Below, piece after piece: positions 18,854 to 23,269 of a DNA stretch of 60,913 nucleotides. Within the stretch, counting starts at the first letter, position 1. Each line of letters opens with the position of its first letter. The notes below the pieces were generated by a model that had not been told where the DNA came from, made no database searches, and worked only from the letters and a program-made list of their open reading frames with translations. This stretch comes from a virus. Location: IMG/VR virus record IMGVR_UViG_3300024282_000001, positions 1 through 60,913 of that record. One strand, 5' to 3'. The translations under genes were made by a program, and so were the position numbers.

Positions 18854-19363
18854 TTAACCCTTCGCCAGAGCTGCTGCTGCTTGTTCTGCCAGAGACAGAC
18901 GAACCTTCTTCATGTCACCGATGTTGCGAGTGCTTTGAACTTCAAAACCAGCACTGACGTTGCAGTACTTGACCGTCTTCTGATCGGGGTTTTGAGGGTT
19001 CGGGAACGAAGCTTCGCGAGTGAACGTTGCCGAGAAGGAATCCTTACCAACAGTGGGAAGCGTCAGCTCAACCTTTTGAACTTCAGGATGCTTCTTGAAG
19101 AAGTCGATAGCTTCTTGACCACCACCGTATACGGTGCCGGCTGCAAACAGCGAATCAGACTTCTTGATCGATTCTGCCATTGCAATGGTTACGCCTTCAG
19201 GCAGGGAAGAAGCGTACAGGGCATTGTCTTCGACTTCAATGATGCCGATGGTCTTATCGGAATCACTCAGACGAGCCTTCAGATGAGGACGTGCGCCTTT
19301 GGCGAATTCCAGAACATCAGCGGGAACTTCAACAGTGGTCTTGGTTTCAGTCTTGTTAGACAT
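18854..19363 (-). CDS. Unknown, probably highly expressed protein (169 aa)
   Basis: I do not recognise the family. The gene is distinctly richer in G+C than its neighbours and uses CTG, CGT, GCC and AAG codons like the sheath and tube genes, which suggests strong expression. A Lys/Thr-rich start (MSNKTETKTTVEVP) precedes a folded alpha/beta core with a Gly-rich turn (GTVYGGGQEAIDFF) and a C-terminal Ala-rich helix. The frame opens further upstream at 19387, but the ATG at 19363 follows an AAGGAAA site and is preferred. It is the second gene after the ParB-RGG gene and ends in a strong hairpin. Confidence 0.7.
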   Translation of the reverse strand: MSNKTETKTTVEVPADVLEFAKGARPHLKARLSDSDKTIGIIEVEDNALYASSLPEGVTIAMAESIKKSDSLFAAGTVYGGGQEAIDFFKKHPEVQKVELTLPTVGKDSFSATFTREASFPNPQNPDQKTVKYCNVSAGFEVQSTRNIGDMKKVRLSLAEQAAAALAKG

Positions 19364-19402: not shown

Positions 19403-19987
19403 TTAATAGGAATCACGATTGCGACCATTAGAGGAGGATTTACGTCCACCATAGTCATTGTTACGTTGTCCGAATTCTCCGCGATCTTTCCGACCGAAGG
19501 ATTGTGGTCGCGAGTTATTCGAACCGTAACTACCGCGCCGACCGTAACCTTCCGACGAGTCGTGGTCAGGGCGCAGTTGTTGCTCAATTAGTTTCTGAGT
19601 TTTCTCAGGGTTTTCATCGAACAAACATTTCTTCAAAGCATGCTTGGTAATAAGACGTGCCTTAATCATGGAACCATTTTGAGAAGCTTCAACGCAACGG
19701 TTGTAGCCAAAGACAACATGATATTTGCCTTCAAAACGGAAGAGTGTGATGGGTTTATTTTCGAAATCTTCTTCAGAACAATGCTTGAGTTCAGTTATTG
19801 ATTTCTTTTCAATGTTGAGTTCTTTTACATCAACTTGAACTGTTGGTGATGTATTAGCCGCAGTGATGATTCGGCTAAAATCATATTTTTGATTTAGAAA
19901 AAGGAACGAAGCCTCTTCCGACATTTCTTTATCTTCAGGAAAATCCATTTTCGTTAATTTATGAAAAAGGGTTAGGTTTGTCCACAT
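19403..19987 (-). CDS. ParB/sulfiredoxin-fold protein with RGG-like disordered tail (194 aa)
   Basis: Residues about 48-115 match the ParB/Srx pattern. KPITLFRFEGKYHVVFGYNR corresponds to the family segment in which a hydrophobic strand is followed by a G(E/H)xR-type loop, here FGYNRCVEA, before an Ala-rich helix. The last 55 residues are low-complexity and rich in Gly, Arg, Ser, Tyr and Asn (GYGRRGSYGSNNSRPQSFG, DRGEFGQRNNDYGGRK), like RGG/SYG tails of RNA-binding, phase-separating proteins. The ATG at 19987 lies in a hairpin; an internal ATG at 19948 is an alternative start. Domain calls are by eye. CTPase, nuclease or RNA-binding activity is not shown. Confidence 0.7.
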   Translation of the reverse strand: MWTNLTLFHKLTKMDFPEDKEMSEEASFLFLNQKYDFSRIITAANTSPTVQVDVKELNIEKKSITELKHCSEEDFENKPITLFRFEGKYHVVFGYNRCVEASQNGSMIKARLITKHALKKCLFDENPEKTQKLIEQQLRPDHDSSEGYGRRGSYGSNNSRPQSFGRKDRGEFGQRNNDYGGRKSSSNGRNRDSY

Positions 19988-20015
19988 GTATCAATGTGGT
20001 TTGTAAAAAAACCAC
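19982..20015 (-). promoter_or_regulatory. Possible start-codon switch
   Basis: On the minus strand GTGGTTT (20015-20009 in window numbering) pairs with AAACCAC (20002-19996). Overlapping it, CCACAT (19999-19994) can pair with ATGTGG (19987-19982), which includes the ATG of the ParB-RGG gene. The two stems exclude each other. The pairing is seen; regulation is inferred and depends on 19987 being the true start. Confidence 0.4.
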
Positions 20016-20080
20016 AACAGTACAACCTAATGCAGTTATGTCTGTTTAGTGATATGTGTTTATAAAATGTTTCAATGGGT

Positions 20081-20111
20081 ATAAAACAGGGGGACAGTCC
20101 CCCTGTTTTAT
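20081..20111. terminator. Long hairpin after the 369-aa gene
   Basis: Fifteen perfect pairs (ATAAAACAGGGGGAC and complement) surround a single A. It lies 6 bp after the minus-strand stop and has A/T-rich flanks on both sides. Confidence 0.85.
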
Positions 20112-20116
20112 ATTAA

Positions 20117-21226
20117 TCACATCGTGCTTACTACTCGATTAAATTGTTCTCGAGTCCTGGTTAACTTATTAATTGCATTTATAGCAGCTCTTACTAATTC
20201 GTAATATGTTTTAAGTATTTCTCTTTCTAATTTTGTCTCATCACTTGTGAGATCTTTACCAGTTATTCCGGTTAACAAAACGTCTGTAATAGCTACGGCC
20301 ATTTTTTCAACCACACTATCTTTACTTTGTTCTTCTATTAAGAATTTTTCGTAAAGATTAATTACTCTCTCAATCATGGGTGAAATTACTTTAACCGTGT
20401 CGTAAATTTGATATGCGACTTCTTTAATTGTTTTATTATTTATATCTTTTAATTCAACTTCATCAATCTCAAACTCAGTTAATTTCTTATTTTCGTTAAT
20501 TAAGTTTGAGTTACGTTCAAGATAATCAATTACATCTTGTAAAGACTCTGATTTCTTGTATGTTTCAGTCATACCTTTTATGACTGTAACTAAACGAACG
20601 ATACTGTCTGATAGTCTTACTATATAAGTGTAATCATTTTGCGCATAACAAAAATAAGGTAGATTCCGGGCATTTAAAATTTGTGCACCGGTATTTACGA
20701 ATCCATTATGAAAACGACTATCGGTCTTAATATCGAAAATACCATTTATTACACGATGATAGTCGGAAAAAGCATTTAATTGAACACCAGTTTCCTTAGC
20801 TTTATTTTCTACAAGTGTTTTTAATTCACCGATAGTGACGTTCTGAATATCAGGGTTTGATTGTTCGTTAGATGCACTTTGTTTAGTTGTATCTTTTTGT
20901 TCTTTTTTGATTTCTCGTTCAGCTTCTTCTATATTTTCTTTAAACTTCTTACTATTATTATTTAATTGTTCCGTTTGTGTTTTATTTGTTCCAAAAATCT
21001 TTTCTTTAAACCAAGCTATAAGTTGTTTTATTTTTTCAATTATCTTTTTAAAGAAATTAGCAGCTTTTTCTTTAAAAGTAGAACCGTCTTCTAAACTAAT
21101 GCAGTTATTGAGACCAAAAATATCAGTTTTATCAAAACTGTAATTTAGATCAGCAGATATTGTTTCCATCGAAACATGGTATCTATTGTTCGAATCAATT
21201 GTTTGTTTTAGGTTTAAGTGTTTCAT
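20117..21226 (-). CDS. Inner-head (inner body-like) protein, processed (369 aa)
   Basis: It begins MKHLNLKQ, like its neighbour. It has S-M-E at residues 19-21 and S-L-E at 44-46, the same two positions as in the 382-aa paralogue. After the second site comes an amphipathic helix (DGSTFKEKAANFFKKI), then a charged linker and long helices (about 150-360). Residues about 85-125 are highly charged (EEAERE, KKEQKDTTK) and probably disordered. No enzyme motif is seen. The prohead protease lies two genes upstream on the same strand. I infer a protein co-packaged with DNA in the head, cut during maturation, and perhaps ejected. Confidence 0.75.
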   Translation of the reverse strand: MKHLNLKQTIDSNNRYHVSMETISADLNYSFDKTDIFGLNNCISLEDGSTFKEKAANFFKKIIEKIKQLIAWFKEKIFGTNKTQTEQLNNNSKKFKENIEEAEREIKKEQKDTTKQSASNEQSNPDIQNVTIGELKTLVENKAKETGVQLNAFSDYHRVINGIFDIKTDSRFHNGFVNTGAQILNARNLPYFCYAQNDYTYIVRLSDSIVRLVTVIKGMTETYKKSESLQDVIDYLERNSNLINENKKLTEFEIDEVELKDINNKTIKEVAYQIYDTVKVISPMIERVINLYEKFLIEEQSKDSVVEKMAVAITDVLLTGITGKDLTSDETKLEREILKTYYELVRAAINAINKLTRTREQFNRVVSTM

Positions 21227-21278
21227 TTTATTATCTTAGTTAAATTTAGATAGAATTTAAATCTCAAGGCCGTTTATA

Positions 21279-22427
21279 TTAATCACCGTTATTAATTAAA
21301 TTATCTATGTCTATTACAAGAGTGCGAGATTGATTACCGATGCGTTTTACTGCTTGCAATAAAATGGCTGTGTTAGATATTAGATTTCTAAACGTTCTTA
21401 TTTTAGCTATATCGTCCTGAGTTAAACCGTGTTCTTTAGAACCGCTGTCTGCTAACTTGTCAGCAAATCGAGCCATTTCAAGAATCTTATCGGCAACTGA
21501 TGAACTATCACCACCCTTATCGATAATCCTCAACACTTTCTGTTCATAGCTCATTGTGGCTTTAAGTAATTTAGCTGTAAATTCATGAACATTACTATCA
21601 AGACACTTATCCATCATTTCTTTAATGTGGTGTTCGTTAGATAGTACTTCTTCGTATTTATCAGTAGCTGTACCGCCGTGTATAGATATATCCTTAAAAC
21701 CGGTATTCTTTTCTAACGCATCATTAAAATCTTTAAAGAATTTAACTGCGTCATCCAAATCACTCATTAAATCAGTCGCAATGTTTACCATGTGATATTC
21801 TTGAAATAACAACATGTATAAGTCATTACGCCAGGTATTACCAACCACTGATATTTTTCTAGATAAATTATAACTCATTGAAACTATAGCAGTTGCACTT
21901 ACATGGGATTTTAATTTATCCTGTAATTCAGTATTTTTCTTAGTTAGATCGGCTTTATCTTTTTCTAGAAGCTTTACTTTATAAGAATCGCCTCTTAGTT
22001 CTGTGATCTTAATGTTAAGTCTTTCAATTTCGGCTGCTTGATCTTTAATAAAATCTTCTTTGGATTCATAATCTGCTGCTTTCCTTGAGAGTTTCACATT
22101 TAAAACAGCTAGAGTTTCTTCTAATTCTTTTATTCTATTGCTGTTATGGATAAGCTTATCAAACTCTTCTTTCCTCTTTTTTTGTTCTGAAGAATCTAGA
22201 CTGTTTGCTATTTTTCTAAGAAAATCAGCAATCGCTTTAAATACTTTACTTAGAAAATCTTTAACTTTTTGTTTAAGACTATCGGAATCTTCTAGTCCGA
22301 ATGATAGTTTCAATGAACTTAATTCTAAACCACTTAGAGAGTTATTTAAATCTTGCTCAAGTGATTCGAGAGAAATACTTTGAACAATTGGAGTTTTTTG
22401 AAATTGAGTTATGCTTAGGTGTTTCAT
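21279..22427 (-). CDS. Inner-head (inner body-like) protein with coiled coil (382 aa)
   Basis: It begins MKHLSITQ. It has S-L-E at 19-21 and 22-24, G-L-E at 33-35, and G-L-E at 44-46. The helix after position 46 (DSDSLKQKVKDFLSKVFKAI) aligns with that of the 369-aa protein. Residues about 85-175 form a strong coiled coil (RIKELEETLAVLNVKL, KLLEKDKADLTKKNTELQ). The rest is helical. It is a paralogue of the 369-aa gene, 52 bp upstream of it on the same strand, in the operon after the protease. The same inference applies: a substrate of the protease and an internal head protein. Confidence 0.75.
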   Translation of the reverse strand: MKHLSITQFQKTPIVQSISLESLEQDLNNSLSGLELSSLKLSFGLEDSDSLKQKVKDFLSKVFKAIADFLRKIANSLDSSEQKKRKEEFDKLIHNSNRIKELEETLAVLNVKLSRKAADYESKEDFIKDQAAEIERLNIKITELRGDSYKVKLLEKDKADLTKKNTELQDKLKSHVSATAIVSMSYNLSRKISVVGNTWRNDLYMLLFQEYHMVNIATDLMSDLDDAVKFFKDFNDALEKNTGFKDISIHGGTATDKYEEVLSNEHHIKEMMDKCLDSNVHEFTAKLLKATMSYEQKVLRIIDKGGDSSSVADKILEMARFADKLADSGSKEHGLTQDDIAKIRTFRNLISNTAILLQAVKRIGNQSRTLVIDIDNLINNGD

Positions 22428-22492: not shown

Positions 22493-23269
22493 TTACCATT
22501 TAGCCCAAGCTGGACCATCTTCAGATTCTAAAGACGTGGACCAACCCATTGTCTTGAATAAATCTTCAGCAGTCAGTATCGCTGACTCAGTTCCTATACC
22601 GGCAGTAGTTCTTGCAGCTAAAATAGCTCTTTCAAATTGACCACGATTAATGATCATTGAATCACCACTATAAGACTCCAGTACTGGACTGTGATATTTA
22701 TCAGCGTAAGCAATACCTGGCTCATTTACCAAGTCAAATGTAACCACTGCTTTTAAAGCACGTTTGATTACGTTTTGATGGTAGTAGTCTTTTGTAAAGG
22801 AACGAATTGAGAAACAAACATTTTTATCTTTGTTCTTCAAGGCTTCGTCTAAGACATAACCCAGTTCACCACTTGGCTTTACTTTACTCATGATAGCGAT
22901 GATGGGTCTGCCCTTTTCATCTTTTACTCTATCAAAGTCAAGCCAGATTTCTTTATGGTGACAGCAAATACGTTCCTCGTAAATGCTGAGCACTCGTCTT
23001 GCAAAATCAGATTCAGATTGTCCAATTTGTGGTTTAGGATGTCCGTTTTCTCCGTTCAGAGAACCCTTCTTGACACGTCTCATGAACTGACTAGAAGATT
23101 CAAAGATCTCTCTAGATTGCTCATAAACGTAATATTGTCCAGCAGAGTTAAAGACATCCAATGCACCCACAACGACTTCGTAATAACCATCGGCGTCTGG
23201 AGTTAGGAGACCAACTTTATTGGTACCTAACAACGCAGTACATCCGAATCGCACACTGTTATGGTTCAT
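22493..23269 (-). CDS. Prohead maturation protease (258 aa)
   Basis: It cleaves scaffold and inner-head proteins during head maturation. Family features visible are a His in GENGHPKP (H77), a Ser in NVCFSIRSF (S154) between two strands, and the strand AVVTFDLVNEPG after it, as in T4 gp21 and phiKZ gp175 (herpes-protease-like fold, serine peptidase). The C terminus carries S-L-E (TSLESEDGPAWAKW), the same S/A/G-x-E type as in the candidate substrates, so self-cleavage of the tail is likely. Two inner-head genes follow directly. The order of protease, two conserved genes and RNA polymerase beta fits phiKZ gp175-gp178. Confidence 0.88.
   Translation of the reverse strand: MNHNSVRFGCTALLGTNKVGLLTPDADGYYEVVVGALDVFNSAGQYYVYEQSREIFESSSQFMRRVKKGSLNGENGHPKPQIGQSESDFARRVLSIYEERICCHHKEIWLDFDRVKDEKGRPIIAIMSKVKPSGELGYVLDEALKNKDKNVCFSIRSFTKDYYHQNVIKRALKAVVTFDLVNEPGIAYADKYHSPVLESYSGDSMIINRGQFERAILAARTTAGIGTESAILTAEDLFKTMGWSTSLESEDGPAWAKW

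Follow-up and report, generated by a model that had tools for sequence, protein, structure and literature searches.

The ORF on the minus strand at positions 19403 to 19987 of the 60,913-nt window (positions 1 to 60,913 of IMG/VR virus record IMGVR_UViG_3300024282_000001, the stretch analyzed here) is genuine and coding, as had been assumed in the preliminary description of this DNA. An identical copy of the ORF is found in IMG/VR contig 3300024312_000005, it is conserved in homologues, and the pN/pS ratios in related pairs are below 1 in both the N-terminal core (0.17 to 0.40) and the C-terminal tail (0.00 to 0.72). The start codon at 19987 (194 aa) was dropped and the ATG at 19924 (173 aa) was preferred; the latter is the probable start, since in all homologues the first beta strand begins only a few residues after the start. 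The features of the locus are listed in Table 1.

Table 1. Predicted genes, protein regions, and regulatory elements at the locus
Feature	Position	Strand	Basis or remark
Gene for the ParB/sulfiredoxin (Srx)-fold protein with an Arg-rich tail, 173 aa	19403..19924	-	Homologue starts; identical IMG/VR copy
Folded core, residues 1 to 118, degenerate ParB/Srx-type domain	19571..19924	-	AlphaFold, Foldseek; remote homology to phrog_17560
Disordered Arg/Gly/Ser/Asn/Tyr-rich tail, residues 119 to 173	19406..19570	-	Composition, pLDDT, pN/pS
Companion gene of the phrog_9746 family, following directly in nearly all family loci	18854..19360	-	
Head maturation protease gene (Peptidase_S80), upstream synteny anchor	22493..23269	-	
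Predicted early (virion RNA polymerase-type) promoter element, ACATATCACTAAACAGA	20041..20059	-	Best site in the window, leave-one-out matrix
Degenerate second promoter-like element, TTAC N14 CATG	19985..20006	-	Window copy has a mismatch
Strong hairpin, -22.6 kcal/mol, terminator-like	20080..20112	-	Separates upstream genes from the unit

No credible match was found when the phage collection was searched with the protein by tblastn, when Pfam was searched with the protein and the family (no direct ParBc match), or with PADLOC, in which no defense or counterdefense family was recognized, and the PDB sequence search returned chance matches only. Since direct tblastn against phages gave nothing credible, synteny with the head protease gene was needed to find relatives. 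An alignment of the protease yielded 63 related IMG/VR loci, and an iterated profile yielded 41 homologous ORFs. The gene is present in 32 of the 63 loci, with a second tandem copy in four, and in nearly all of them it sits between the genes for the head protease and the phrog_9746 protein; the exceptions are L010, with one extra gene in between, and L027, which ends too early. Among the whole records, 26 of 43 had a match, two of which (G020 and G037) only away from the protease locus. The companion phrog_9746 gene, nearly universal in the related phages, is probably part of the same operon.

Of the 266 phage records matched by the window head protease, that of Burkholderia phage FLC9 is the closest (53%), followed by those of FLC6/FLC8 and Xanthomonas phage LucasX, in agreement with the phiKZ-type phage context suggested earlier. 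The gene follows the protease gene in the same layout in FLC9 (gp35) and FLC6 (gp34). Contigs of Caballeronia and Paraburkholderia also carry the family, and the hosts seem to be largely Burkholderiaceae. Of the 43 searched records, 41 encode chimallin (ChmA) and 40 encode ChmC. The family is absent from phiKZ, Moabite, BONAISHI, and LucasX, and the protein is therefore dispensable for some nucleus-forming phages. Three records (G010, G012, and G016) have a second, more distant chimallin-like gene beside the main one, and the chimallin of this clade (in FLC9, 316632-314707, minus strand) opens with a disordered-looking Q/G/S/N-rich stretch of ~50 residues.

The ParB/Srx-like core proposed from the initial inspection was borne out by AlphaFold and Foldseek with two family members and two structure libraries. 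The AlphaFold model, calculated from a 29-row family alignment, has the ParB/Srx fold with a pLDDT mostly above 90 in the core (90 to 97 over most of residues 11 to 40 and 61 to 100). The first 17 Foldseek matches in the PDB all belong to this superfamily, comprising ParB, Noc, PadC, Srx, SbnI, and free serine kinase (best E value, 0.008; probability, 0.98 to 0.99 for the best). None of the PDB matches was below an E value of 0.001, and the TM-scores against PDB chains were all below 0.5, which makes the core a remote variant of the fold. For the core of a second family member, predicted separately, Foldseek again ranked these families first, with weaker scores (best E value, 0.19). Eight matches to predicted viral structures passed an E value of 0.001, one of them to the ParB/Srx protein of phage EL (E value, 5e-5; probability, 1.00), and for the small proteins among them the TM-scores, normalized by target length, were about 0.6. 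A region of A0A1L7N1E0, a 664-aa protein of Ralstonia phage RP31 named RNA polymerase beta prime subunit, also matched in its predicted structure (E value, 1.7e-5). We were not able to find a helix-turn-helix (HTH) DNA-binding domain in the AlphaFold model, which closes with a short helix and the disordered tail.

Sequence homology to accepted ParB/Srx members is indirect and runs via DGxHR-bearing intermediates of phrog_17560. The family profile matches the protein encoded at L120:1446-1841 (hmmsearch E value, 8.6e-10; hhalign, 95.7%, E value, 1e-8) and, weakly, the L121 protein. These two proteins have the motif as DGLHR/DGEHR, and their matches to phrog_17560 are strong (4.8e-18 and 2.1e-15), whereas those of 9 of the 29 family members are weak. 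Relatives of the L120 protein in Erwinia jumbo phages are annotated as "chromosome partitioning protein ParB." The core is thus a ParB/Srx domain by descent. The phrog_17560 proteins (EL gp75, Erwinia phage Huxley gp11, and Psa21) have the same core fold and detectable sequence homology, and Huxley gp11 is annotated as "putative chromosome partitioning protein ParB." However, they keep DGxHR, unlike the family described here, and those examined lack the Arg-rich tail and are encoded in other genomic places. A search for phrog_17560 in six phages at an E value of 1, a threshold loose enough to give matches in control genomes, found none. A tail-less member encoded off the protease locus (L119:1892-2218, minus strand) has GEHT at the motif position and is intermediate between the family and the DGxHR proteins.

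In the aligned 29-row family, the ParB nucleotide-binding motif (GERRxRA/DGxHR) is absent: only the glycine of DGxHR remains common (23 of 29), and the His-Arg pair is unconserved. Column counts of the alignment likewise revealed no conserved cysteine at the position of the catalytic cysteine of the sulfiredoxin GCHR motif. Downstream of the motif position, the family has its own signature, GK[YF]xVLxG ... G[RK]LI[ST]xxALKxxR. The core probably lacks nucleotide chemistry, as judged from these sequences, and the loss of DGxHR makes ParB-like CTP-dependent DNA clamping unlikely. Thus, while the overall fold is common to sulfiredoxin and the N-terminal domains of ParB, Noc, and PadC, the core differs from these in lacking GxxR/DGxHR and the HTH, in having no ParA partner in sight, and in carrying an Arg-rich tail instead.

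The tail has a pLDDT of about 50 and no secondary structure in the AlphaFold model. Its best 50-aa stretch consists of 80% R/G/S/Y/N/Q, compared with 60% for the next of the 44 window proteins. In most of about 35 distinct relatives, the tail is Arg-rich, poor in hydrophobic residues, and net positive (+3 to +9), which argues that the pairing of core and tail is not due to chance. The tail had been likened to RGG/SYG tails, and in the window copy it is indeed disordered and rich in Arg, Gly, Ser, and Tyr. However, by counts of RG/GR dipeptides (six in the window copy, zero to two in nearly all relatives), RGG or SYG repeats are not a conserved feature of the relatives, so that the term fits the window copy and not the family. 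The conserved trait is an Arg-rich, basic, disordered tail, which is under purifying selection by its pN/pS ratios. The tail is very short or missing in four copies (those of L024, L037, and L119 and the first of L011), and it is Lys-rich in the tandem second copies of L013, L017, L022, and L011, suggesting that it may be dispensable in places. Two of the second copies carry SSGKFGRIFG near the C terminus, and one ends in NFGNIFKK.

The upstream regions of the relatives share an element 98 to 144 nt before the start codon, with the matrix consensus NCATATATCACTAANNTGA; the element of FLC9 gp35 and FLC6 gp34 is ATATCACTAA. When both strands of each locus were scanned with a leave-one-out matrix, the site of this gene outscored all others in 24 of 24 loci, one of which was the 60.9-kb window; this count is not a clean P value, because the sites were first chosen with the short pattern NATATYA and the loci are related. 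In FLC9, the matrix finds 19 sites, compared with 1.85 in shuffled sequences, and these precede, among others, the genes for chimallin, the phiKZ gp68 homologue, and an RNA polymerase beta subunit. The element is located before the chimallin gene in 19 of 20 family-bearing genomes and before the protease gene in none of 70. It precedes the phrog_9746 gene in 0 of 36 cases when the ParB-fold gene comes first and in 7 of 29 when it does not. The early promoters of OBP, N1M2, 201phi2-1, and phiKZ have the core TATATTAC or ATATTAT preceded by TTTYARR (PMC7058600), and such AT-rich motifs mark the promoters used early by the virion RNA polymerase (PMC7598289). The element NCATATATCACTAANNTGA resembles these published phiKZ-type promoters, is shared with chimallin, and never occurs at the protease gene, from which we infer the timing: the gene, although surrounded by a late block, is probably early and coregulated with the nuclear shell protein chimallin. 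What is new here is the conserved early-promoter-like element of the gene, common to chimallin.

A second element with the family form TTAC/ATAA N15-16 TATG/TATA, a pattern chosen by eye on the same leaders, is found in 19 of 20 leaders of the relatives, compared with 1.0% of control windows, and in 3 of 16 chimallin leaders. It resembles the middle promoters of phiKZ, which have AAanTTACc near position -24 and sometimes TATG at +1 (PMC4666361). With the early element, the second element, and a hairpin cutting off the upstream genes, the unit looks like an early, possibly early-plus-middle, operon in a late block. In many loci, a hairpin follows the protease gene, with TATGCCG after it and upstream of the early element; TATGCCG holds a TATG motif like that of phiKZ late start sites.

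The gene has the same kind of predicted early switch as the nuclear shell gene, making a helper of the first infection stage probable. Binding of nucleic acid by the protein is likely, and there is about an even chance that, as a whole, it is a small protein that binds nucleic acid and is expressed early by nucleus-forming jumbo phages. In such a scheme, the injected virion RNA polymerase would transcribe the operon as infection begins, and a middle promoter may prolong expression. The core would serve as a module for docking to protein or nucleic acid and not as an enzyme, its partner perhaps being the phrog_9746 product or a phage polymerase, and the Arg-rich tail would make multivalent electrostatic contacts with RNA or DNA. 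Its ligand would most likely be a phage transcript (or host or phage DNA) at the vesicle-to-nucleus stage, where condensation with RNA could occur and would not be required. A more specific version, in which a repurposed ParB fold acts alongside ChmC as an RNA-condensing factor, made right after injection under the same control as chimallin and gathering the transcripts of the phage at the early vesicle or at the nucleus as it forms, is unlikely. The link to the phiKZ vesicles and compartment drawn in the preliminary description is possible by way of the early-promoter-like element that the gene has in common with chimallin.

Other functions would also be compatible with some of these features. 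An unlikely one is that of a host takeover factor, the basic tail of which would bind host ribosomes, RNA, or the nucleoid in favor of the phage. The early-type element fits such a function, and the early phiKZ protein gp014, which binds host ribosomes, is a precedent (PMC11849849); however, nothing points to a host target, and no defense or counterdefense family was matched. It is quite unlikely that the protein is a transcription factor of the phage RNA polymerases, redirecting them to middle promoters or regulating its own middle promoter. The gene does have both an early and a middle-type element upstream, a switch of promoter specificity by an early DNA-binding protein has been put forward for phiKZ (PMC4666361), and the predicted structural match to the RP31 beta prime subunit would be in line with such a function. 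However, the protein lacks a recognizable sequence-specific DNA-binding motif, and about half of the related phages, which also must switch promoters, do not have it.

The position of the gene inside the head/tail block would suit a late structural role and runs counter to the early reading. The gene adjoins the head protease and prohead-like genes, and mass spectrometry underlies the structural annotation of a PA5oct relative. Even so, a virion protein, such as a basic component that belongs to the inner body or condenses DNA and is made along with the head genes, is improbable given the early-type element with a terminator-like hairpin in front of it. The motif of the phiKZ protease is S/A-x-E, and 10 such sites lie after residue 95, compared with 18.6 in shuffled sequences. 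Since these sites are fewer than expected, there is no sign of prohead processing, and a role as a prohead protease substrate was rejected. Most improbable of all is a functionless low-complexity tail that drift has left on a small domain for protein binding: the tail sequence does change fast and is missing in some members, but its net-positive, Arg-rich, hydrophobic-poor composition recurs in distant members and its pN/pS is below 1.

The reading as an early nucleic-acid-binding protein invites comparison with ChmC (Imp6; phiKZ gp067), described in reviews as an RNA-binding protein of the phage nucleus. The two may be functionally alike in being early, nucleic acid binding, and nucleus associated, and they occur in the same genomes but at different loci. 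Identity with ChmC was ruled out (hhalign probability against phiKZ gp067, 0.1%). Eukaryotic FUS-type RGG/SYG tails resemble that of the window copy in being disordered and Arg/Gly/Ser/Tyr-rich. However, FUS-type proteins have another folded domain, and the analogy is weak because RGG/SYG repeats are not conserved across the ParB-fold family.

It is an open question how transcripts exit the early vesicle and what seeds the phage nucleus, and few of the parts are known. To these, our analysis adds a candidate that is conserved but undescribed and that has a defined gene, a phrog_9746 partner, and a predicted promoter in common with the shell protein. To our knowledge, there is no transcriptome for this clade, in which the promoter matrix predicts further early genes. 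The family is carried by the cultured Burkholderia phages FLC6, FLC8, FLC9, and SURPRISE13.

In the window, unlike in FLC9, two adjacent genes lie between the protease gene and the ParB-fold gene (positions 20117 to 22427, minus strand). Both products start with MKHL and have SME/SLE-like sites after ~20 to 25 residues, which recall the propeptides of phiKZ inner-body proteins.
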